The translations under genes and the position numbers were made by a program. Below the pieces are notes generated by a model. It did no database searches. It saw only the letters and a list, made by a program, of their open reading frames with translations, and was not told where the DNA came from. Below are positions 1 to 36,433 of a stretch of DNA of 64,000 nt, piece by piece. Where the stretch lies: positions 1 through 64,000 of the IMG/VR virus record IMGVR_UViG_3300011114_000773; one strand, 5' to 3'. Positions within the stretch are counted from its first letter, which is position 1. Each line of letters opens with the position of its first letter. The DNA is from a virus.

Positions 1-539
1 GCCGCTGTGGCCATCTGCGGGCTAACGAGCCAACTGCTCGGCATCCGATATTCAAAACCATGCTTTTGAATCCGAAAGTCCATCGCTTTTCCATAAGGAG
101 TCGCGGGACTCCCATAGATTTGCCGCGCCGGGGTTCGCCTCTCTTTGGCCTCTACGGGGTCTTCGACCAAGACTAACCATGGCGCGACAAACTGCGTTAG
201 AATTTCCGTTCCTGCTCTGGCGCTTATTTTCCGTTTTGTCCCAAAGTGGATATGTCCGCCAAGGGCATATTGTCCCTTGATAGACCCGGCTTGCCACCGG
301 AACCTCATTAGTTCCGGCTGCATAGAAACTCGGTGACTCATGGCCTTGGCTATATTTCCCACTACTTCCTTCGGGCACACGGATGGCGTTGGCCTGATTT
401 CAAAAGTCACCCCATTTCCATCCGTGCCTATCTCCTCCGCCGCGCTGCCGAAATGCTCGGCCTCGACGACACTCCCGGTTGAGCGGACCATGCAGAACTC
501 GGGGTCTGCACCAATCATTACATCATAGAATTTAGACAT
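1..539 (-). CDS. phage COOH-NH2 ligase type 2 (ATP-grasp-like), partial
   Basis: A leftward gene starting with ATG at 539 and open to the left edge, so its C-terminus is missing. The N-terminus shows the family signature: IGADPEF near residues 9-15, DGNGVTFEIRP around residue 40, and GGHIHFG near residue 94. These are typical of the phage COOH-NH2 ligase type 2 family, a permuted ATP-grasp-like group predicted to join a carboxyl to an amine, probably on peptides or the cell wall. Substrate unknown. A sigma70-type promoter lies just upstream. A second amide-forming ligase of the amidoligase type is at 11360-12133. Confidence 0.75.
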   Translation of the reverse strand, partial: MSKFYDVMIGADPEFCMVRSTGSVVEAEHFGSAAEEIGTDGNGVTFEIRPTPSVCPKEVVGNIAKAMSHRVSMQPELMRFRWQAGSIKGQYALGGHIHFGTKRKISARAGTEILTQFVAPWLVLVEDPVEAKERRTPARQIYGSPATPYGKAMDFRIQKHGFEYRMPSSWLVSPQMATA

Positions 540-555
540 ATATTTCTGTATTGGG

Positions 556-5306: not shown

Positions 5307-5592
5307 AAAAAGTACAGTTAAAAGTTTTGTCTCCCTTTGCTTGGATAACCACGCTAGTCTCTTTCCCATCGTTGTACTTCAAGACGACTTCCTTCAAGCA
5401 AAAATGGCAAACAGGAGAAACCGACGCGGTCTTAGTTTCATCTTTAAAAGAATAGTCGAAATAAGATAATTTACGAGCCTCCTTTAAGACTTCGTAGTCA
5501 TCCTGAGCATAAGCCATCGCGCATACGCAGCACTTTAGAACACGTTTCGAGGAAGGATTCGGTTCAATTAGAATTACGGTATTAGGATTCAT
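5284..5592 (-). CDS. hypothetical Cys-rich, probable zinc-binding protein
   Basis: 102 residues from ATG 5592 (MNPNTVILIEPNPSS). Two CXXC pairs, CCVC near residue 21 and CHFC near residue 62, are spaced as in zinc ribbons. Otherwise unrecognised. The start overlaps the end of the HAD gene by 11 nt and the stop overlaps the next gene, consistent with one leftward transcript from the promoter at 5969-5997. A longer frame to 5634 is possible but overlaps more. Confidence 0.55.
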   Translation of the reverse strand: MNPNTVILIEPNPSSKRVLKCCVCAMAYAQDDYEVLKEARKLSYFDYSFKDETKTASVSPVCHFCLKEVVLKYNDGKETSVVIQAKGDKTFNCTFYENDKSQ

Positions 5593-5962
5593 AGAATACG
5601 ATAAAGTCAGGAAGACATTCCCCATCGTTCTCATCGACCTTTATAGCTTTGTCGTCAAAGAAGTGAGTAAAATGCGGATATTTAATAGCTGTTACCGGAA
5701 GTTTTGGAATCCCGTTTCGTTCAAGAAAATCCCAAATCATACGAGTCTGATTTTTAATAAACGCCTCAGAGCGAAGACCGGCTTTGCCAGCAGGAGCGAC
5801 ACGCGCTGTGAAAATACTTACTTTATAGTCCTTGTCGAGCCAAACTTTGAGCCGATTGAGTATTTTCGGCACGGGTGCTCCGACAGTGCTAATTCCGTTT
5901 TTGCCGCCATGATAAAAGGCTAGTGTTCTATCAAAGTCAAGGGCGATATGTATTCCTTTCAT
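5582..5962 (-). CDS. HAD-superfamily phosphatase-like protein
   Basis: 126 residues. Motif I is intact (DFDRT, residues 9-13, nucleophile Asp9), motif II lies in VSIFTAR near residue 50, and a late FFDDKAI supplies the metal-binding Asp pair. The layout is close to small phage HAD phosphatases related to the phosphatase half of polynucleotide kinase. Likely removes phosphate from a nucleotide or nucleic-acid end; substrate not determinable. Preceded by a leaderless promoter. Confidence 0.7.
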   Translation of the reverse strand: MKGIHIALDFDRTLAFYHGGKNGISTVGAPVPKILNRLKVWLDKDYKVSIFTARVAPAGKAGLRSEAFIKNQTRMIWDFLERNGIPKLPVTAIKYPHFTHFFDDKAIKVDENDGECLPDFIVFYES

Positions 5963-15329: not shown

Positions 15330-15401
15330 TATTAAAGCGTTTGGGTCCGACCTATATCATACCTCGTACTAAGCGCGAGTCCACGTTTTACTGGTTGCTA
15401 G

Positions 15402-15512
15402 TTACTTATTACGAGCTACAAGTCCACAGATTTCATCTTGGCGCTTGCTGTATGGGGTTTTGAAAGCCCACTGGAGACGCATTTGCAAGCCGATATCAGT
15501 GTTCTCAGCCAT
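15402..15512 (-). CDS. 36-residue hypothetical protein
   Basis: A short frame in a gap that would otherwise hold nothing: MAENTDIGLQMRLQWAF at the start and ICGLVARNK at the end. The composition is protein-like (amphipathic helix, balanced charges), but no promoter or overlap supports it directly, and it could be chance. Confidence 0.35.
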   Translation of the reverse strand: MAENTDIGLQMRLQWAFKTPYSKRQDEICGLVARNK

Positions 15513-15559
15513 AAGTATCGCACCGTTCCTCAGTACAACACACGCCGGACCCAAACAAA

Positions 15560-16044: not shown

Positions 16045-16277
16045 GAGAGTAGCCGGTATTTCTTAGTCCCATCTTCGTAAATATCTACCGCTATATCTAA
16101 CTCATCAGCTAGCTGAACTACCCAATGAGCTTTACGATGGTCGTCTGATATTTTGTCATCTTCTCTGACGGACTCCCTGCCTGTAAATGCTTTATTTATA
16201 GCGCCAAACGCATGAAACCTCTGGCGCTCGCTCAGGCTTACAGAAACGACTTTATTGAAAGTAGCTACTAGCTTCAT
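16041..16277 (-). CDS. hypothetical protein
   Basis: 78 residues (MKLVATFNKVVSVSLSERQ). Single small helix/strand protein without recognised domain. Located 5 nt after the NAMPT-like gene, so co-transcribed with it. Confidence 0.55.
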   Translation of the reverse strand: MKLVATFNKVVSVSLSERQRFHAFGAINKAFTGRESVREDDKISDDHRKAHWVVQLADELDIAVDIYEDGTKKYRLLS

Positions 16278-16282
16278 AAGAA

Positions 16283-17905
16283 CTAGACTTCAAGACTCTT
16301 ATTGATTCGCCCCCTAATTTCCGCAAGAGTATGGTCGATAATTAACTTGCCATCAAGAAAAACTGTCTTAAGTTCACCCTTCTCCTCCTCTTCTGGAGTT
16401 ACGCAGTCCTCGTAAGTATAATGCCCATCCACTAAGTCCACCCGGATAAGCCCCTTGGCAGACTTTTTCATGCCATCATCAGAAACGGGGTCTTTATATA
16501 CCTCGATAGCCAAGTCGTTCACAACGCCATACGTAGCCTTGATGGCCATACCGAAGGTATCCCTAGTATTATATTGGTAAGTGAAACTGCCAATTCCATA
16601 GATGCTGTTCGTGGAAGCGAAACCCTTCTCTTTCAGCCGAATACAAATTTTCTCGCCACGGGCCTTAGTAATCGAATCTCCATAAATCGCGCCGATATGA
16701 TAGTCAAGGACTTTATATCCCTTGGGACTGACGGTTCCACCGAAGATGTTCCACAGCGATTCAATTAGTCCCTTACGGACGACTTCCTTCTCCAAGGCTG
16801 TAAGCTTCTCCATCTGAGGGTGATATCCGCTGAAACCGCACAGGCAGTCAACTGGGTCCGTCCAAAACGAGTCGGGACGAATAACAAGCCTATCTACCGG
16901 AAACCCTCCGGTGCGAGCAAGAATCTCTGGCTTAAGCCGAGGAAGAATCTCAACGACGACAGAAAACAAATTATATGTGTCACCGACATACGACGCGACG
17001 CCATTCGGTACGCATTCAGTGATGTACCATTTAAGAAAAGCGTACTCCTTAACAAGGCGCGGATTAACGGACTCGGAAGTCGGCTTCTCCATACCGAGAG
17101 GAGTTCTCTCGATAAATTCTGCAAGAATTGCTTCGTAGTCCATGCACCCGTAGATGATGTTGAACGACGCTACAGCGTGCTCCGTCGCCGAGACGCTCGC
17201 TCCGACTAGTTCCTTATCAACGTCGGCATTATAGTAATGCTCAAGCCACTCAATCGCCGGAATAGTGTCCGTGCCCGAAAAAGAGAGCAAGTGACCGCCA
17301 CCGCTCGAACAGGCGGTTTCAAGGCTTCCCATTCCACGGAAACTAAAATCGTGCCCTTGCCATTGGCAGAACGACGTATCACCGACTGTTTCCATCGCGT
17401 ATTTGTTAAGCATCTTACGAAAATCCAATGCAATTGTAGCGCTGGTAATTGGTTGCCAAGTGACGCAACTCCAAAGGCTTTCCAGATAATTCACCAGCCA
17501 ATACGCATGGTCAATAGTGTTTGTAATTGTCGTGACAGGCGTACGAATTAATGCGCTAACCCCTTCTGGTAAAGCCTTGATTTTAAGGGGCAAATACCCA
17601 AGGTCGTGCAGTTTTTTAATATGCTCGGTATCGACCGCTCCTTTACCCAAGGTAGCATTTACCATTCGGAGATATTTCTTTTCAACCTCGGCCCAAGGCT
17701 TGCTAAAAAAGTTCTTTCCCCACTGTACGAGAAGATACTCTTTAATAAAATATTGGAGGCCGAACACGACAACAGTATTCAACCCTTCTACGCGGCTCTT
17801 CCGAGCCGTCAGGTTGGAATAGACTTTCTGAGTGCCCTTGGGATAGCACTTGTAGTGAGTCTGCTTGTAGAAGTCTGTTAAAGTCAATGGTTGGATGCTA
17901 TTCAT
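16283..17905 (-). CDS. nicotinamide phosphoribosyltransferase-like enzyme (NAMPT/NadV or Namat type)
   Basis: 540 residues from ATG 17905 (MNSIQPLTLTDFYKQTHY); a TTG 22 codons upstream is unlikely because it would overlap the promoter. Full-length NAMPT family protein: TDFYKQTHYKCYP at the N-terminus, DFSFRGMGSLETACSSGGGHLLSFSGTDTI around residue 195, and VIRPDSFWTDP further on. NAMPT makes NMN from nicotinamide and PRPP. In phages such genes paired with a Prs-like gene can instead be NAD+-rebuilding enzymes that use ADP-ribose-pyrophosphate. A Prs-like gene lies 1.2 kb upstream. Leaderless promoter at 17913-17941. Confidence 0.88.
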   Translation of the reverse strand: MNSIQPLTLTDFYKQTHYKCYPKGTQKVYSNLTARKSRVEGLNTVVVFGLQYFIKEYLLVQWGKNFFSKPWAEVEKKYLRMVNATLGKGAVDTEHIKKLHDLGYLPLKIKALPEGVSALIRTPVTTITNTIDHAYWLVNYLESLWSCVTWQPITSATIALDFRKMLNKYAMETVGDTSFCQWQGHDFSFRGMGSLETACSSGGGHLLSFSGTDTIPAIEWLEHYYNADVDKELVGASVSATEHAVASFNIIYGCMDYEAILAEFIERTPLGMEKPTSESVNPRLVKEYAFLKWYITECVPNGVASYVGDTYNLFSVVVEILPRLKPEILARTGGFPVDRLVIRPDSFWTDPVDCLCGFSGYHPQMEKLTALEKEVVRKGLIESLWNIFGGTVSPKGYKVLDYHIGAIYGDSITKARGEKICIRLKEKGFASTNSIYGIGSFTYQYNTRDTFGMAIKATYGVVNDLAIEVYKDPVSDDGMKKSAKGLIRVDLVDGHYTYEDCVTPEEEEKGELKTVFLDGKLIIDHTLAEIRGRINKSLEV

Positions 17906-29359: not shown

Positions 29360-29384
29360 ACTGACTAGTAAGTCAAATAAATTC

Positions 29385-29402
29385 TACGCCGTATTGGGCG
29401 TA
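29385..29402 (-). terminator. possible intrinsic terminator after tmRNA
   Basis: A 6-bp hairpin TACGCC/GGCGTA with a 6-nt loop, 9 nt past the CCA end of the tmRNA on the minus strand, followed by the moderately T-rich GAATTTATTTG. Placement fits a tmRNA terminator; the U-tract is weak. Confidence 0.4.
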
Positions 29403-29410
29403 AAGAAAAG

Positions 29411-29796
29411 TGGTGGACGCGGCGAGGAGTCGCACCTCGCGTCAAAAAAATACTTTCCATAGGTCACTACACGCTTAGTTTATTTTTAATTACTTCAGTC
29501 CAAGTGACTCTTGATAAACAAACATCATTTGAACTATAGATTACTTTTCAGTCGGCCCTCTAATCACTGAGGCTGACCAATTCTGAATTTACGCTTATGG
29601 AATCTACAGACATCAATCCCTAAGCGGCTTGGCCATTAGACCAAGGCGGTTGCACGGCTGCTCACTACGCAGAAACTATTCCGTGTGTTTTTTGCTGTTT
29701 TAGCACTTACTTTTTTTCCGATTATTTAAGAGGCCATCGGAGTCCTCTGCGTGCGACTGAATAGTTCGTATTTTAGTTCGATACTACTACGCGCCC
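29411..29796 (-). ncRNA. ssrA: transfer-messenger RNA (tmRNA)
   Basis: 386 nt on the minus strand. The 5' GGGCGCG pairs with 3' CGCGTCC (one G-U) as an acceptor stem ending in encoded ACCA. The 3' region AACTAAGCGTGTAGTGACC, then GACGCGAGG, a TGCGACT T-loop and CCTCGCC closely follow bacterial tmRNA. H2 pairing is supported (AAAATAC with GTATTTT; CACGC with GCGTG), and pk1 is clear (AGAGG/CCTCT and TCCGAT/ATCGGA). After pk1 two tag frames are possible: an Ala (GCT) start at 29704 with 22 codons ending SSRATALV before TAA, or LKQQKTHGIVSA ending at tandem TAG TGA in a CTGC/GCAG hairpin loop. T-loop position 55 is G, not U. Confidence 0.88.
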
Positions 29797-29811
29797 ATTA
29801 CTAACTATTGG

Positions 29812-29840
29812 AGTTTACACCTAAGTCCGTCCTTTGTCAA
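29812..29840 (-). promoter_or_regulatory. sigma70-type promoter for tmRNA
   Basis: TTGACA (29840-29835), 17-nt spacer, TAAACT (29817-29812), 15 nt to the mature 5' end at 29796, implying a short processed leader. Confidence 0.75.
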
Positions 29841-29844
29841 GGGA

Positions 29845-31500
29845 TTATCCTTCGCATGATTTGCAGGTCATTATAGACCTAGATAACTCCTGTGCTGGAT
29901 TAGCAGACCGTTGATAATAAAATGTTTTAATTCCGAGTCGCCAGCCTTCAATCAGTAAGTCGCTTATCTCTTTAGGCTTGATGCTTGGAGGTATCATTAG
30001 ATTCAAAGACTGGCTTTGGTCAATAAACTTCTGCCTTGAAGCAGCCTGAATTACTATTTCTTTTTGGCTAATCTCGCCAAAGGTTTTAAACACGGCGCGT
30101 TCTTCTTCCGACAAGAAAGATAGATGTTGAACCGAGCCTCCGTGAAGTAGAATCGACTCCCAAACTGGTTCTGTATTTTGGTCTTTATCGACCAACAGTT
30201 TACGCAAAAATGGATTGGTATAAGTAAACTTACCTTTCGCTAAGTCCTTGACGAAATAATTAGAGTTCAACGGTTCTATCGAGGGGCTTACCTGTCCCAA
30301 GATAAAAGAAGAGGAGGTCGTGGGAGCGATAGCTATAAGCGTAGTATTTCGACGCCCTTTTCCGACTAGAAGACTCGGTTCTCCGAGAATGATTGCGAGT
30401 TCTTGAGATGCCTTTTCGGCTCTACTCTTTAGCTCCTGAAATACCTCTAAATTAAGCATTTTCGCGCTCATAGACTCGAAGGCAATCATTTTAGACTGAA
30501 GCAGAGAGTGCCATCCTAATACCCCCATACCCAAAGCTCGATGGTTCTTGGCGAAAAGATGCGCTGGACGCATGAATGGGACGCCAGCAGATTTCTTGAC
30601 GAATTCTTCGTTCACGGCGTCAAGAAAATAGACAAGGCATTCGACGGCATCAGTCTCCTTTATCTCGTCCCAATACAATAAATTTAGCGACGATAGCACG
30701 CAAGTAAACGACTCTTCACCGCTAGAGGGCAGGCAGATTTCGCTACATAAATTCGACGCCAAAATCTTCATCCCCAAATCTTTATATACCTGCGGAGAAT
30801 TATTATTAACAGTGTCGGTAAAGAAAAGATAGGGATAACCCGTTTCACATCGTTTTTGGATTATTTTGCTCCATATTTTTCGCTTATCAGGACATCCTTT
30901 GGTCATCTCCCGCATCCACTCATCAGTAATTGTTACTCCGATGCTGATGTTCTGAATCTTGTGCCCGTCAGAACGAATCTTAAGGAACTCTAATACGTCA
31001 GGATGCTCTACGGGAAGATATGCTGCGAAGCTGCCCCTGCGGGTGCTACCTTGGCTGACTGTTTCCGAAACAGAGTCAAAAATCTCCATGAAATGTACCG
31101 GGCCAGAAGATTCTCCACCAGCACTTATTTTCGACCCGCGTGGTCGGATTGCGCCAAAATCAGCGGATGTTCCTCCGCCCCCTTTTGACATCATTCCTAC
31201 CTCCGCTGCTTTCCCAAGGATAGACGGCAGGGTATCTTCTACCCTTGAGCCGAAGCATGACACAGGAAGACCATTTTTCGCTCCAAAATTAGTAAGCACC
31301 GGCGTCGCTAGAGAGTAGTAGCCCTTCTTGATATATCCATAGAACTTCTCTGCGAATCCGGGGATTCCTAGAATTTGTTCAGCGACATTAGAAATAGTCA
31401 AGTATCGGTCTTCTGGAGTGACACCGCTCTCTAGGTAGCCGCGACTTAAAAAGGTTCTTGAGTCTTTATTTAAAAATTGGAAATCTGGTCTAGTCTTCAT
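29845..31500 (-). CDS. nrdA: ribonucleoside-diphosphate reductase class I, large subunit
   Basis: 551 residues. The active-site Cys are present: VSCFGSR near residue 80, NLCSEI (thiyl Cys and Glu) and CVLSSLNL mid-protein, and the C-terminal CKSC pair that is re-reduced by thioredoxin or glutaredoxin. The protein starts directly at the NrdA barrel, so the N-terminal ATP-cone that senses dATP/ATP is missing, as in several phage enzymes; this removes overall-activity feedback. Works with NrdB 13 nt upstream to make dNDPs for replication. Confidence 0.93.
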   Translation of the reverse strand: MKTRPDFQFLNKDSRTFLSRGYLESGVTPEDRYLTISNVAEQILGIPGFAEKFYGYIKKGYYSLATPVLTNFGAKNGLPVSCFGSRVEDTLPSILGKAAEVGMMSKGGGGTSADFGAIRPRGSKISAGGESSGPVHFMEIFDSVSETVSQGSTRRGSFAAYLPVEHPDVLEFLKIRSDGHKIQNISIGVTITDEWMREMTKGCPDKRKIWSKIIQKRCETGYPYLFFTDTVNNNSPQVYKDLGMKILASNLCSEICLPSSGEESFTCVLSSLNLLYWDEIKETDAVECLVYFLDAVNEEFVKKSAGVPFMRPAHLFAKNHRALGMGVLGWHSLLQSKMIAFESMSAKMLNLEVFQELKSRAEKASQELAIILGEPSLLVGKGRRNTTLIAIAPTTSSSFILGQVSPSIEPLNSNYFVKDLAKGKFTYTNPFLRKLLVDKDQNTEPVWESILLHGGSVQHLSFLSEEERAVFKTFGEISQKEIVIQAASRQKFIDQSQSLNLMIPPSIKPKEISDLLIEGWRLGIKTFYYQRSANPAQELSRSIMTCKSCEG

Positions 31501-31513
31501 TTTTTATATCCGG

Positions 31514-32485
31514 TCAAAATAATTCATCGACATCAAAGCTCTTGCCTTTTTTAGAGTATTCCGTCGGCCTTGTCTTGAAAAAATCCGCCATGTTATTCCC
31601 GAGGAGTTCTTCGTAGAACCACTTAGTCTCCTTGACGACAGTCGGACTCACGATAAAGATTTCAGAATAGCCTATCTGGACAAGCGATTCATTGATTCGC
31701 CTTTGGACGAAAGCCTTTAAGACCTCTGGAGTAAGTCCATCTTGTTTGTAGTTAGACAAAATCCAGTCAATGATAACCGACTCCGACTCGAATGCCACGA
31801 CCGCCTCTTGTTTAACCCTAGCCTCTAGCTCCGCATCAAAAAGCTCTGGATATTCCTCACGAATCACGTTAACGAGTTTAATTCCCACTAGGGCATGTAT
31901 ATTCTCCTCGTTCCTAGTGTATTTAACCTGCTGGTCTGTATCTTTAAGAACGTTCTTATTACGGGCAAACCAGTTAATAACGTAAAATTGGCTGAAGAGC
32001 GATACGTTCTCTACGAAAAGGGTAAAGAGAATTAGCGCGTAAATAAACTGCTTTTTCTCATCTCGATATACGCCCTTAGAATATTTCTTCAAGTACTTAA
32101 CTCTATTGCCGATGCAGGGGAGTTTTAAGTTCTGCTCAAATACGTCATCTAGCCCGAGGACATGAAGAAGCCTTTCGTAAGCATTATTATGGATGACCTC
32201 CACGTTGGCCATGACATATCCCATATCAGCGATATAAGGATGAGGAAGGTTGTCTCCGAGTTTACCCCAAAATGTCTTTACAGCAACTTCTATTTGAGAA
32301 ATGGCAGAAAGCGTCCGAACGATGACCTCACGCTCCTCTTCGGTAAGCGTAACTAGAAAATCGTGCTTATCTGAATTAAAATTAAATTCTTTATCCGTCC
32401 AGAAGCCATTGTGCATAGCTTCTACGAATTCCGTAGTCCACGGATATTTATTAGGCCTTCGAGATGTCTGTTCTTCAAAAATCAT
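31514..32485 (-). CDS. nrdB: ribonucleoside-diphosphate reductase class I, small (radical) subunit
   Basis: 323 residues from ATG 32485 (MIFEEQTSRRPNKYPW); a TTG 3 codons upstream is possible. Metal ligands: ISQIEVAV (Glu), NVEVIHNNAY (Glu, His and the radical-type Tyr four residues later), LFVENVSLF (Glu) and EENIHAL (Glu, His). Presence of Tyr points to a tyrosyl-radical class Ia-like enzyme. The C-terminal FDVDELF is the NrdA-binding tail. Promoter at 32497-32525 with an 11-nt -10 to ATG gap. Confidence 0.93.
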   Translation of the reverse strand: MIFEEQTSRRPNKYPWTTEFVEAMHNGFWTDKEFNFNSDKHDFLVTLTEEEREVIVRTLSAISQIEVAVKTFWGKLGDNLPHPYIADMGYVMANVEVIHNNAYERLLHVLGLDDVFEQNLKLPCIGNRVKYLKKYSKGVYRDEKKQFIYALILFTLFVENVSLFSQFYVINWFARNKNVLKDTDQQVKYTRNEENIHALVGIKLVNVIREEYPELFDAELEARVKQEAVVAFESESVIIDWILSNYKQDGLTPEVLKAFVQRRINESLVQIGYSEIFIVSPTVVKETKWFYEELLGNNMADFFKTRPTEYSKKGKSFDVDELF

Positions 32486-32496
32486 ACTGTTCAAGT

Positions 32497-32525
32497 ATCA
32501 TACAGCGGGTTGCACCCACGCGCAA
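32497..32525 (-). promoter_or_regulatory. sigma70-type promoter for nrdB-nrdA
   Basis: TTGCGC (32525-32520), 17-nt spacer, TATGAT (32502-32497), 11 nt to the ATG at 32485; near-leaderless. Confidence 0.62.
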
Positions 32526-32582
32526 GCGAAAACGCCCAAACAGAGAAAATACATTTTGCGCCATAAATTCCCGTGTAGGGAG

Positions 32583-33089
32583 CTATACGACGAGAAACGG
32601 TTCGGGAGAAGAGGATAAATCAAAAAATTTAACAATAGAAACTCCTGCTATAGTTTTTATGGTTCCTATCAGGTCGTTGCCTCTTTCATGGTTCGTGAGA
32701 AAGAAGTTCTTATAATATTCTTGAGCTTGGCTATTCCGGGCCGATTTACTGCAACTGCATCCGCTATTAACCAGTACCTCTAGGGCACAAAGACTATTAA
32801 ACGCTTCTTGCTGCTCTTTGGAGAACTTATCTTTTAAAGGGAAGTACCACCCAACAAAGGACTGCAACCCCTCAAATGATATTTTTAGCTCAGAGTCTAT
32901 CGCGTCGGCTACGGGTCCGCCGCCAAGGAGCACGACTAGACTCTCTGGAGAAGTAGGAACTGGTGCGCTGGAGGCTCCGACGTGCTCTGGAAGATTGACT
33001 TGAGGCGCAACGACTCGTCCCCCGATAACCGTATCGAGATTCCATGCCTCCGCGCCAGCGGCGAATCGTTTTTCTAATTCTGGACTCAT
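32583..33089 (-). CDS. hypothetical protein
   Basis: 168 residues (MSPELEKRFAAGAEAW). An N-terminal region with Pro/Ser-rich linker (SSAPVPTSPESLVV), then a helical half with CSCSK near residue 115. No domain recognised. Overlaps the upstream membrane-protein gene by 4 nt. Confidence 0.6.
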   Translation of the reverse strand: MSPELEKRFAAGAEAWNLDTVIGGRVVAPQVNLPEHVGASSAPVPTSPESLVVLLGGGPVADAIDSELKISFEGLQSFVGWYFPLKDKFSKEQQEAFNSLCALEVLVNSGCSCSKSARNSQAQEYYKNFFLTNHERGNDLIGTIKTIAGVSIVKFFDLSSSPEPFLVV

Positions 33090-33457
33090 CCTTTTCTGTT
33101 AAGGATATACACGATTTTAACTAGCGAATAGTAAAAAACAACAGTCACCCAGACAGTAGCGAATACGATGACTAGTCTTCCGTCTCCGAATATTACACTT
33201 ATCGCAATTGAACAGAACACTGATAGGCACTCTCCACAGCTTGCTAGCGCTATCCAAAAGCTATTTGGCCACTTTATCCCCAGTCGCGTCCAGAAATTCA
33301 ACCTTGACTGTATTGGGTCATTAAAAAAGGCGCTCCCTTTCCTCGCCATCCGGCAAAACAGCTTGGAGTATGACTCGAATGCCTTCGTATCCGACACGAT
33401 ATATCCGATTGCCGACGACGCCAACGCTATAAAAATAACCAATTCTATAAAATTCAT
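33086..33457 (-). CDS. small integral membrane protein
   Basis: 123 residues from ATG 33457 (MNFIELVIFIALASS); the longer frame to 33508 adds a second hydrophobic leader and is less likely. Hydrophobic segments near 4-22, 66-86 and 94-118 suggest three membrane helices. CGECLSVFCS near residue 73 carries several Cys. Unknown function. It ends the leftward unit beside the rightward RNA gene. Confidence 0.6.
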   Translation of the reverse strand: MNFIELVIFIALASSAIGYIVSDTKAFESYSKLFCRMARKGSAFFNDPIQSRLNFWTRLGIKWPNSFWIALASCGECLSVFCSIAISVIFGDGRLVIVFATVWVTVVFYYSLVKIVYILNRKG

Positions 33458-33517
33458 AATTATTAAAATGGACTTGGTGAGTATAAAAATGCTCTCCGAG
33501 CTATACAAGAATACGTT

Positions 33518-33628
33518 ATGGCCAGCAGCGCTAGTACGAATACAATCATACTATTCGACGGGCCATCTAAACACGTATTCTACGACTCTGCCAAAAAAAA
33601 CTTTGACAAATCGCTAAACCCATGCTAG
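33518..33628 (+). CDS. possible 36-residue protein
   Basis: A rightward frame (MASSASTNTIILFDGPSK ... LNPC) ending inside the promoter of the downstream RNA. Composition is protein-like, but there is no promoter or coupling evidence, and part of it could be the 3' end of a longer frame on the same strand. Confidence 0.25.
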   Translation: MASSASTNTIILFDGPSKHVFYDSAKKNFDKSLNPC

Positions 33629-33631
33629 CAT
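33603..33631 (+). promoter_or_regulatory. sigma70-type promoter of the structured RNA
   Basis: TTGACA (33603-33608), exactly 17 nt, TAGCAT (33626-33631). The predicted start is about 33638-33640, 8-10 nt before the terminal stem of the RNA at 33648, and no gene begins within the next 500 nt except after the RNA. Confidence 0.72.
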
Positions 33632-33647
33632 AATTTCAGTAATATAT

Positions 33648-33983
33648 CTGGACATGGAAATAAGTGCCTCCCGCTTTCAGACGGGCGTTAACTAGCAGCT
33701 ATCACCTGAAAATGGTCGTGGCCCTTGGGCAAGGTCGAAGATACTACTGCGTGGTTAAAGCGTGTGATATGGGGAAACAAGCAACAGGTCACATAAGGGC
33801 ACATCAACCGTTGGTTGGGAATCCCTAGTCGAAAGACTAGGGGGATGGTCCGAAACTATTTTTAGGACGAGGCGGGTAACGTCACGTTGACAAAGGTAGA
33901 GCTAGACGCCGGGGCACGATAGACCCCTATGGTCCTGAATGGCTGAAGCTGCCCTATGCGCGTCTAACTCCGTCTATGTCCAG
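33648..33983 (+). ncRNA. unidentified structured non-coding RNA, ~336 nt
   Basis: A discrete RNA on the plus strand. The ends pair as an 11-bp terminal stem, CTGGACATGGA (33648-33658) with TCTATGTCCAG (33973-33983), one G-U. Inside: CCCG/CGGG (33671-33686), CCCTAGTC-GAAA-GACTAGGG (8 bp, GNRA loop), CAACC/GGTTG, GTCC/GGAC, TAGACGC with GCGTCTA enclosing GGGG/CCCC, and GTGCC (33665-33669) with a distant GGCAC. The GNRA loop and promoter fix the strand. It carries no plausible reading frame. It is not RNase P, 6S, SRP, tmRNA or a standard group I/II intron by conserved motifs that I can check; large ornate phage RNAs (ROOL, GOLLD, HEARO) remain possible. Confidence 0.75.
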
Positions 33984-34049
33984 AATAGTAATATTCAACA
34001 ACATAACACGGAAATGAAGACACCTCAAAAAAGTTTGGTTTGCAGGATG

Positions 34050-34089
34050 TTAAGAAAGCATGTCCTTTAAAACAGGCTTGCTTTCTTAA
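34050..34089. repeat. 11-bp inverted repeat downstream of the RNA
   Basis: TTAAGAAAGCA at 34050-34060 pairs perfectly with TGCTTTCTTAA at 34079-34089, with a further small CCT/AGG stem in the loop. It lies between the RNA and the dNMP kinase start (34145). It may end RNA transcription or bind a protein; no U-tract follows (TTTCCTAAAAAAG), so an intrinsic terminator is doubtful. Confidence 0.55.
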
Positions 34090-34144
34090 TTTCCTAAAAA
34101 AGTATAGTCTGCGCTTCTTTTGTCTTTACATTATTATTCATTTT

Positions 34145-34753
34145 ATGATTCATCACGGTACTAACACCGAGGGTACTCTTATTAAGGTACAGGGGCTAGT
34201 TGGGTTGTGCGGCCTAGCTAGGTCAGGCAAGGACTTATTATGCTCGAAACTAATGGAGCGCGGGGAAGTTGTCCGAGTGGCTTTAGCTGACGAGCTTAAG
34301 AAAGACATGCGAGACTTCCTAACGCTTAAGTACGGTATCGACATTCTACACTGCTCTGCTGTGGAAAAGGAGGTCGTCCGCCCTCTTCTGGTAGCACATG
34401 GATGCGCTATGAGAGGATTAACTAATGGAGACTGCTGGATAAATAAAATCCACCAACAAGTTGTAGCTAACGCATTGCAGTCATTGGTTGTCGTCACCGA
34501 CATTCGGTTTCCAAACGAACTTGCGTGGCTTAGGAGATTGGGCGGCGCTCTAGTCCATATCCGAAGATATAATGTAGTGGAGGGTGAGCGGTGGTATCTT
34601 TCTCCTCCTAACGCAGACGAGGCAGAATACGACCCCCACTTAAGGGAGTCGGCTGATTTTAAACTTGAATGGCAAACATCAAACGATATAGGAGTAAAGT
34701 TAAATGCAGAAGTGGACCAAGTAGTCTCATACTTGAATGGACGACTTTACTAA
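34145..34753 (+). CDS. deoxynucleoside monophosphate kinase
   Basis: 202 residues from ATG 34145 (MIHHGTNTEGTLIKV); an in-frame ATG/TTG 35 codons upstream is not supported. P-loop GLARSGKD near residue 27, then VVTDIRFPNELAWLRRLGG, the pattern of T4 gp1-like dNMP kinases that phosphorylate dNMPs (often modified or dGMP/dTMP) to dNDPs. It completes the nucleotide pathway. Overlaps the sigma gene by 17 nt and begins the long rightward operon. Confidence 0.82.
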   Translation: MIHHGTNTEGTLIKVQGLVGLCGLARSGKDLLCSKLMERGEVVRVALADELKKDMRDFLTLKYGIDILHCSAVEKEVVRPLLVAHGCAMRGLTNGDCWINKIHQQVVANALQSLVVVTDIRFPNELAWLRRLGGALVHIRRYNVVEGERWYLSPPNADEAEYDPHLRESADFKLEWQTSNDIGVKLNAEVDQVVSYLNGRLY

Positions 34754-35336
34754 AAAAAACGACAGTGAACTTATTTCTTCCGTCGTGAATAGTTCATGCT
34801 CGGACAGCTACCTTGAGCTTTGCCGAAGATACGAAAAGGTCTTTTACAAAGTATGCCAGAGGTATAGCTCTGTCTTTACCTCCGTAGGAATCCCAATAGC
34901 TGATATACTTGACGATAAAGATTCAATCATTTATTTTTGCGTAAAAAAGTTTGACCCGACTAGAGGCGCTAAATTTTCTACGTTTGTCGGAAACTACGCC
35001 AGATTTTTATGCTTGAAAAGTATTTTAAGTAAAAAGCATTGTTCTGACTTCAGCGATGATTCGATAAACGAACTTATTGAGAGTCGCCAGATTGCTCAAG
35101 AATATGAATCTTCCAATACTATTTTTGGAGCGTCTTTAGTCAACGAGGCTGTCGAAAAACTAGAGAATCCGATACATCGCAAAATTATTCACTTAAAGTA
35201 CTACGCACAAGCTGGCCCTGTTACATGGAAGACCATCGCTAATGATATGAAAATTAGCGTCCCGACCGTAATTGGAATACATGGTCGAGCTATTAGGAAT
35301 CTCAAAAGGAAAATAAAAACGCTAGAATTACAATGA
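34737..35336 (+). CDS. phage sigma-like factor (region 2 and 4)
   Basis: 199 residues. Region 2 is recognisable as ELCRRYEKVFYKVCQRYSSVF, then IIYFCVKKFDPTRGAKFSTFVGNYARFLCLK, and region 4 as WKTIANDMKISVPTVIGIHGRAIRNLKRK, an HTH for the -35. Together with the ECF-type factor at 24296-24892 it gives two phage sigmas, probably for different expression classes. Overlaps its neighbours on both sides by a few nt. Confidence 0.8.
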   Translation: MDDFTKKNDSELISSVVNSSCSDSYLELCRRYEKVFYKVCQRYSSVFTSVGIPIADILDDKDSIIYFCVKKFDPTRGAKFSTFVGNYARFLCLKSILSKKHCSDFSDDSINELIESRQIAQEYESSNTIFGASLVNEAVEKLENPIHRKIIHLKYYAQAGPVTWKTIANDMKISVPTVIGIHGRAIRNLKRKIKTLELQ

Positions 35337-36433
35337 AAAACTTCTCTCTTCATCTACCAATAAACTCTACCAGTCTAGGTCAGACATCGACCTTAATTCT
35401 GCGGACACTCATCGAGAACCCGGAGTTACTAGCGAAAGTAGATGGCTTATTTAATATCGGACATGACTTAGACTTGTCCAGTCAGGACCAGTCTTCTGTG
35501 AAGTCGTTTAGCCCAGCCGTACAGCAATTGATGAATGACAGTTTATCTAAGTATAGCAGGAGCACCCCATGCTTCAAGTTGTGGCACTTGTTAGGTTCTC
35601 TTGAATCGTATAGCGCAAATCCGACACTTCTATCATTTTACGAGTTAGACGAGCCGACAAGCGCAGAGCTTACTATTGCTGGAAGTCAGAACACGTTATT
35701 TACGTCTCGATACACCTGCGATGTATTCGCTAGTCGAGGAGTCCAGACTAAATATGTTCCGCTCGCTTTTGACGACTTCAATTTCAAAGTCAAAAATACA
35801 AGGAGAATTCCTGATAGGATTACTTTTAACGTCGTAGGCAAATATGAGAAAAGGAAATCTCACGAAAAAGTAATCAAATCTTGGATTAAGAAGTTCGGAA
35901 ATGACCGTCGTTATTTCTTGCAGGCCGCTGTCTATAATCCTTTCTTCCCGAACCCGGCAGAGACAAATAACAGAGTTACGAATGAACTATTGGGCGGACG
36001 GTCTGTATTTAATGTGAATTTCTTCGGGCACATGCTACAGAACTCTCTATATAATGACTTTCTTAACTCGTCGGATATCGTGCTTGGACTGAGTGGAGGA
36101 GAAGGCTGGGGACTTCCTGAGTTCCAGTCTGTAGCGATGGGAAAACACGCGGTTATTTTGGACGCTCATGGATATAAAGGCTGGGCCAATGCCGAAAACT
36201 CGGTTCTTGTAAAGCCAAACGGTAAAACCCCAGCATACGACGGATTATTCTTCCGTCAGGGAGCGCCGTTTAATCAGGGCAGTATTTTTACATTCGATGA
36301 AGACGCTTTTATCTACGGATGCGAACAAGCTATAGAAAGAGTCAAGAGCAGCCCAGTTAACGCTTCTGGAATTAAATTGCAGCAAGAGTTCTCAAGACAA
36401 AAAATGGTAAATCAAATTATAGAAGCACTATGA
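35333..36433 (+). CDS. glycosyltransferase, GT4-like (GT-B fold)
   Basis: 366 residues. The C-terminal nucleotide-sugar domain is clear: ITFNVVGKYEKRKSHEKVIKSW, then DIVLGLSGGEGWGLPEFQSVAMGKHAVIL and QGSIFTFDEDAF, the EX7E-type region of GT4 retaining enzymes. N-terminal half unremarkable. First of six glycosyltransferases in the 35.3-43.6 kb cluster; overlaps the sigma stop and the next start by 4 nt each. Confidence 0.8.
   Translation: MKNFSLHLPINSTSLGQTSTLILRTLIENPELLAKVDGLFNIGHDLDLSSQDQSSVKSFSPAVQQLMNDSLSKYSRSTPCFKLWHLLGSLESYSANPTLLSFYELDEPTSAELTIAGSQNTLFTSRYTCDVFASRGVQTKYVPLAFDDFNFKVKNTRRIPDRITFNVVGKYEKRKSHEKVIKSWIKKFGNDRRYFLQAAVYNPFFPNPAETNNRVTNELLGGRSVFNVNFFGHMLQNSLYNDFLNSSDIVLGLSGGEGWGLPEFQSVAMGKHAVILDAHGYKGWANAENSVLVKPNGKTPAYDGLFFRQGAPFNQGSIFTFDEDAFIYGCEQAIERVKSSPVNASGIKLQQEFSRQKMVNQIIEAL

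Follow-up and report, generated by a model that had tools for sequence, protein, structure and literature searches.

The IMG/VR virus record studied here is 108,297 bp long, and the window analyzed covers its first 64 kb. Within this window, a candidate structured RNA of ~338 nt (33647-33984, plus strand), which is closed by a terminal helix and is described on the basis of its fold, its closed reading frames and the lack of an Rfam family, sits between a minus-strand gene block and a plus-strand operon. The genes on the upstream side include nrdB and nrdA (29845-33508, minus strand). On the downstream side, the operon opens with a deoxynucleoside monophosphate kinase gene (~34148-34753; PHROG 139, E 4.5e-24; Pfam DNMK), followed by a gene for a sigma-factor-like protein (34737-35336; PHROG 351, E 1.2e-6) and then by a glycosyltransferase gene (35333-36433), all on the plus strand. 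With these neighbours being concerned with nucleotide metabolism and a sigma factor, we found no evidence for the suggestion, made in a first-pass annotation of this DNA, that the RNA is the partner of a defence or anti-defence system.

The record is compact, and when a 75-codon limit was applied to open reading frames, just two gene-free intervals longer than 300 nt were found, namely 29360-29844, which holds a tmRNA gene, and 33618-34039, which holds the candidate RNA. The G+C content of the candidate is ~52%, as compared to 43% for the record. Its frames are closed, with the longest stop-free run inside it reaching 55 codons, in line with the earlier statement that it contains no open frame.

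Promoters and transcript boundaries

The tmRNA gene (29411-29796, minus strand; Rfam RF00023, 103.6 bits) was the only Rfam match at the gathering cut-off in the window. It is a divergent tmRNA that was missed by ARAGORN, it lies directly downstream of nrdA and it is followed by a terminator-like hairpin (29404-29383). Its promoter, TTGACA-N17-TAAACT, is found at 29840-29812 on the minus strand, 15 nt upstream of the tmRNA. The candidate RNA is preceded by a promoter of the same form, TTGACA-N17-TAGCAT (33603-33631, plus strand), in which the -10 element is extended by TG and from which a start is predicted at ~33638-33639. In the record, TTGACA-N17-TAnnnT occurs at 9 sites, whereas 1.1 were expected from shuffles (with a maximum of 3 in 60 shuffles), and a looser form of the promoter, with spacers of 16-18, occurs at 11 sites as compared to a single site in a reversed control. 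As this promoter class is enriched in the record, the promoter of the candidate is not a chance motif. Several of the other TTGACA-N17-TAnnnT copies are intergenic and lie just 5' of genes, and one of them heads the tmRNA. The distance from the -10 element to the first paired base is 15-16 nt in both the candidate RNA and the tmRNA. The promoter described in the first-pass annotation is thus present, and the 17 nt given there for its distance to the stem should be corrected to this value. Judged from sequence, the candidate seems to possess the promoter of its own that marks an independent non-coding RNA gene, and this predicted promoter is the best evidence for such a gene.

The Shine-Dalgarno motif is nearly absent from the long ORFs of the whole record, being found for 4 of 75, with 8 in an internal control. 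Such near-absence, despite the enriched sigma70-type TTGACA promoters, is a clue to the host group.

On the 3' side, neither a terminator belonging to the candidate nor a defined 3' end, as would likewise mark an independent non-coding RNA gene, was found. No intrinsic (T-run) terminator occurs after 33983 and up to 34148. A strong downstream hairpin (34048-34093, plus strand; local z -4.99), with no T-run directly after it, is a possible 3' end or attenuator. Near 34148, there is no convincing separate promoter for the operon, as the sole consensus match overlaps the start codon. Given this weak 3' side and the lack of a clear operon promoter, the locus could hold a stand-alone RNA, an RNA cut from the operon transcript or a leader, and the layout, with the candidate on the same strand at the head of the operon, would be compatible with a cis-regulatory leader. 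The earlier description of a discrete RNA with its own promoter and independent of any gene should thus be kept in part: the 5' end and the promoter stand, while the 3' end is not discrete and independence is put in doubt by a same-strand operon that begins at ~34148 with no convincing promoter of its own.

Predicted fold and flanking repeats

The minimum free energy of the candidate (33648-33983) is -120.9 kcal/mol, as compared to a mean of -105.7 for dinucleotide shuffles (z -2.81), with none of 400 shuffles as low; in a separate run, 1 of 100 shuffles was as low. The folding energy by itself is unexceptional within the window (residual of -2.2 s.d.). As a yardstick, the tmRNA of the same phage has a z of -3.66 on its own strand, and the value for the candidate is near those of this tmRNA and of tRNA-bearing stretches of a relative. 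Since the complementary strand of the candidate folds almost equally (z -2.60), the strand is fixed by the promoter and not by the fold.

The terminal helix pairs a 5' arm, TCTGGACATGGA (33647-33658), with a 3' arm, TCTATGTCCAGA (33973-33984), at a predicted probability of 0.98. It comprises 11 pairs, including one G-U (33648-33658 with 33973-33983), to which U33647-A33984 adds a twelfth, and a terminal stem of such length was obtained in only 2 of 2000 dinucleotide shuffles. Inside this helix, a 5' multibranch domain (33664-33802) has its own closing helix of 6 bp (33664-33669 with 33797-33802), and its pair probabilities are mostly 0.72-0.96. It is followed by a perfect 8-bp GNRA hairpin, CCCTAGTC-GAAA-GACTAGGG (33823-33842; pair probability of 0.99), and by a 3' arm (33903-33966) that is based on a perfect 7-bp helix, TAGACGC/GCGTCTA (33903-33909 with 33960-33966; probability of 0.98). 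Within the 3' arm, the interior helices are predicted with little certainty (pair probability of 0.2-0.56), and several interior helices of the candidate as a whole lie at 0.2-0.6. The 11-bp end pairing and the two perfect inner helices reported in the first-pass annotation were therefore all recovered, the former with its one G-U pair.

The candidate is flanked by an 8-nt direct repeat, AGTAATAT, at 33638-33645 and 33987-33994 (plus strand), the 3' copy of which also lies within a small GAATA-GTAA-TATTC hairpin. The chance of an 8-nt word being common to both 20-nt flanks is 0.3% against the genome background and 1.3% when the flanks are shuffled, values that should be read with the repeat having been found post hoc. 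Seen as DNA, the terminal helix is an imperfect terminal inverted repeat of 12 nt, with TCTGGACATRGA at both ends and 11 of 12 positions identical. Inverted repeats with a target-site duplication, as in miniature inverted-repeat transposable elements (MITEs), could thus be recognized here in the 12-nt inverted and 8-nt direct repeats. The multiple copies of a MITE could not, as the record holds one copy and the phage and plasmid collections none.

Elsewhere in the window, an intergenic stretch of 230 nt between two minus-strand genes (15330-15559, minus strand; G+C of 0.47) has a z of -3.4. Positions 1-548 (minus strand), considered as another RNA, were rejected as they contain the start of a protein gene that continues beyond the end of the record (1-528, minus strand). 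This gene is missed by ORF lists that do not allow open ends and can hence be mistaken for an RNA.

Searches for known families and for relatives

With permissive filters and a limit of E<=10, the 651-nt stretch of 33500-34150 was compared with the 4227 families of Rfam release 15. What this returned were weak, fragmentary chance matches to unrelated families, far below the cut-offs, and none of the ROOL, GOLLD, HEARO, OLE, RNase P, 6S, SRP, tmRNA and group I/II models matched the candidate RNA at E<=10. A group I or II intron was thus rejected for want of a model match, the surroundings being gene-free on both sides. ARAGORN found no tRNA within the 64-kb window. The first-pass view that the RNA falls into no recognized class, and is not RNase P, 6S, SRP or tmRNA, agrees with these results, while its proposal of a divergent member of the ROOL, GOLLD or HEARO kind finds neither a model match at E<=10 nor a tRNA in the window to lean on.

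At the sequence level, blastn of the candidate gave nothing convincing in 50,697 phage records and nothing in 72,556 plasmid records; blastn of the tmRNA in the phage collection likewise gave no match. An exact 20-mer search for the GAAA hairpin in IMG/VR yielded one match, which was discarded as a chance hairpin, and searches with 16- to 18-mers of other regions of the candidate in IMG/VR, together with one scan of GTDB contigs, yielded chance or apparently coding matches only. When 80 NrdA-related loci and the records behind 58 loci were searched by blastn and nhmmer, nothing was found beyond a 26-nt chance echo. Across 1.6 Mb of sequence from relatives, single-sequence covariance models of the 5' domain (model R1, 33664-33802) and of the 3' domain recovered the window itself and nothing else. 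They had no match in 20 further pieces totalling 377 kb, and a search of 50 records with the 5' model was likewise negative. Structured gap stretches of the relatives G009, G018, G007, G003 and G013 were set aside, as they resembled DNA of small ORFs or of simple palindromes. By major capsid protein, the closest phage is L087 (98%), a 27.7-kb contig that does not reach the candidate region, and the absence of homologues may reflect missing close-kin data rather than uniqueness.

The same place was inspected in syntenic relatives. In L019, L035, L046 and L027, the AT-rich promoter region that separates the kinase operon from the nrdB gene opposite it holds no large RNA, and the operon heads of L026 and G056 are AT-rich only, with no such RNA. 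The RNA is thus dispensable for the group. A short purine-rich element, GAGCGAG...GAGCGAG, was seen between nrdB and the kinase operon of L019 (8513-9022), and likewise in L035, L046 and L027. In these relatives, it has a sigma70-like promoter on either side, the two being in tandem, and the DNA around it is otherwise very AT-rich.

In L005, a gene-free and G+C-rich stretch of 529 nt (5383-5911) with TTGACA-N17-TATATA lies ~1 kb upstream of the homologous glycosyltransferase gene. It matched no Rfam family and was dropped as a homologue, as it shows no sequence similarity to the candidate (89 of 300 shuffles scored as well). Without its promoter, the stretch loses its folding signal (z -1.53). 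It is therefore treated as a positional parallel and not as a homologue, although its presence behind a TTGACA promoter near the same glycosyltransferase means that such units may recur here. Echoes of this stretch that nhmmer returned in L041 and L037 were coding, and relatives found through the 116-aa protein adjoining it carried neither RNA.

Other small RNAs were noted among the related phages. Matches of 70 nt to the tmRNA model occur in G006 (C1:9119-9188, minus strand; L278 1501-1570) and G007 (C1:4007-4076, plus strand; L279 1501-1570). In both, the match runs from one end of the model to the other at 57-58 bits, above the cut-off, with no tag-coding domain, and the sequence consists of a tRNA-like domain, the acceptor arms of which are GGGGGUG/CACCUCC (the third pair being G-U), and a short joining hairpin. 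A tag-less 'mini-tmRNA' of this kind would be unusual. In L286, a phage with related NrdAB, a Pistol ribozyme (RF02679, 52.1 bits; 16789-16856, plus strand) lies in a gene-free stretch of 1.1 kb just downstream of a tmRNA and a cluster of tRNAs. L300, also with related NrdAB, encodes a permuted tmRNA of the alphaproteobacterial type (RF01849, 121.9 bits; 16128-16493, plus strand), and tmRNA genes thus recur in different forms among these phages.

Interpretation and comparison with known systems

The candidate is probably a lineage-specific structured RNA, for which we infer a function. More specifically, we tentatively read the locus as a phage-encoded gene for a non-coding structured RNA that is confined to its lineage, as far as the databases show, and that most likely acts in trans, and we hold this to be somewhat short of an even chance. 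Host-type RNA polymerase would start at ~33638 from the extended -10 promoter, either early or constitutively, and the transcript would fold into a closed multibranch RNA, the ends of which are locked by the predicted helix of 11-12 bp. The 3' end would arise by processing at the terminal helix or by termination at the 34048-34093 hairpin. The RNA would be stable and would act in its folded form, most likely in trans, by binding host or phage factors, and its gene would be built like the tmRNA gene of the same phage. This reading is favoured by the promoter class, by the tmRNA occupying the only other gene-free interval of more than 300 nt, by the closed frames, the z of the fold, the terminal helix and the G+C content. 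It is weakened by the failure to find a homologue, by the lack of a terminator after 33983, by the fold of the complementary strand and by the uncertain interior helices, and further by the dissimilarity of the L005 stretch and by syntenic relatives that lack the RNA. If so, an RNA gene that is short, is defined by its promoter and belongs to a tmRNA-carrying phage would be a manageable experimental example. The stronger claim, that the RNA represents a new class of phage-made stable RNAs of ~340 nt, with a tmRNA-like gene and acting in trans on the infected cell, is unlikely; were it true, unrelated RNAs at the same operon head in a cousin phage would point to a fast-evolving slot for such RNAs.

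The lack of both a terminator and a clear operon promoter makes a long regulatory leader a serious rival. A single transcript from 33638 would here carry a long cis-regulatory 5' leader of the kinase and sigma-factor operon, with the fold and the 34048-34093 hairpin controlling read-through or translation. The shared strand, the missing T-run between RNA and operon and a start-codon overlap in the one consensus promoter near 34148 all suit such a leader, as does the comparison with relatives, in which the operon heads have promoters near the first gene, the promoter at 33603 being the best candidate here. However, few phage leaders would be expected to reach the size of this self-closed body of 338 nt, the strong downstream hairpin (z -4.99) could end the transcript, and relatives carry the same genes with no such leader. 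We consider it somewhat unlikely; if real, it would place nucleotide metabolism and a sigma factor of the phage behind a switch of a new kind.

A further reading, which we hold to be distinctly unlikely, is that a divergent operon head has here a real promoter but otherwise ordinary intergenic DNA, the fold being a moderate statistical fluctuation of G+C-rich sequence. The modest z of -2.8, the residual of -2.2 s.d. in the window, the similarity of both strands and the lack of detected conservation speak for it. Against it, the promoter coincides with the terminal helix, with the perfect GNRA hairpin and with what is, apart from that of the tmRNA, the longest gene-free interval in a compact genome. 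The flanking repeats raise the weaker rival of a MITE-like non-autonomous insertion into the operon leader, in which the helix would be a terminal inverted repeat, AGTAATAT a target-site duplication and the RNA fold incidental. The 12-nt imperfect inverted repeat within an 8-nt direct repeat and the absence of the unit from the same place in syntenic relatives speak for such an insertion, but the direct repeat is short and post hoc (chance of 0.3-1.3%), the body is non-palindromic, the unit is single-copy in the record, and no copy was detected by blastn in the 50,697 phage or 72,556 plasmid records or around pattern matches in IMG/VR or GTDB. As no second copy was found, a MITE is not favoured and is, in our estimate, still less probable than a chance fold; an RNA cassette that had been inserted would fit the flanking repeats just as well. 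Least probable by far is a known class, such as RNase P RNA, a group I intron, tmRNA or ROOL, that has diverged too far for Rfam. The tmRNA of the phage had itself diverged too far for ARAGORN, though not for Rfam, where it still scored 103.6 bits, while the 651-nt stretch, searched with permissive filters against 4227 families, gave none of these classes at E<=10.

To return to the reading that we prefer, a separate RNA gene, the candidate can be compared with several known systems. To our knowledge, large structured phage RNAs are few, and ROOL and GOLLD are among those with no known function. Structured 5' leaders and antitermination RNAs, such as riboswitches and put-type elements, are like the candidate in lying at the head of a same-strand operon and being followed by a strong hairpin; unlike them, the candidate matches no family, and put-type elements are much shorter. 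MITEs, in the outline of them given in PMC10969869, are like the candidate in being short, in carrying no gene, in ending in terminal inverted repeats and in being flanked by a direct repeat, but the candidate differs from that outline in being single-copy, without relatives and with a non-palindromic body. ROOL and GOLLD are RNAs of phages and prophages that are often, though not universally, found near tRNA islands, many GOLLD RNAs exceed 800 nt, and Rfam includes profiles for ROOL, GOLLD and OLE (PMC12286853). The candidate resembles ROOL and GOLLD as a phage-borne structured non-coding RNA with no assigned function and differs from them in its size of ~338 nt, in the lack of an Rfam match and in the absence of any detected tRNA in the window. 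In gene layout, a parallel can be drawn to the tmRNA (RF00023) of the same phage, which likewise has a TTGACA-N17-TAnnnT promoter 15 nt from a paired 5' end, a gene-free interval and paired ends. The candidate matches this tmRNA neither in sequence nor by model, it lacks a tag frame and tRNA-like ends, and no terminator lies directly after it, in contrast to the terminator-like hairpin of the tmRNA. It is best described as an orphan candidate within the broad kind of phage structured non-coding RNAs.
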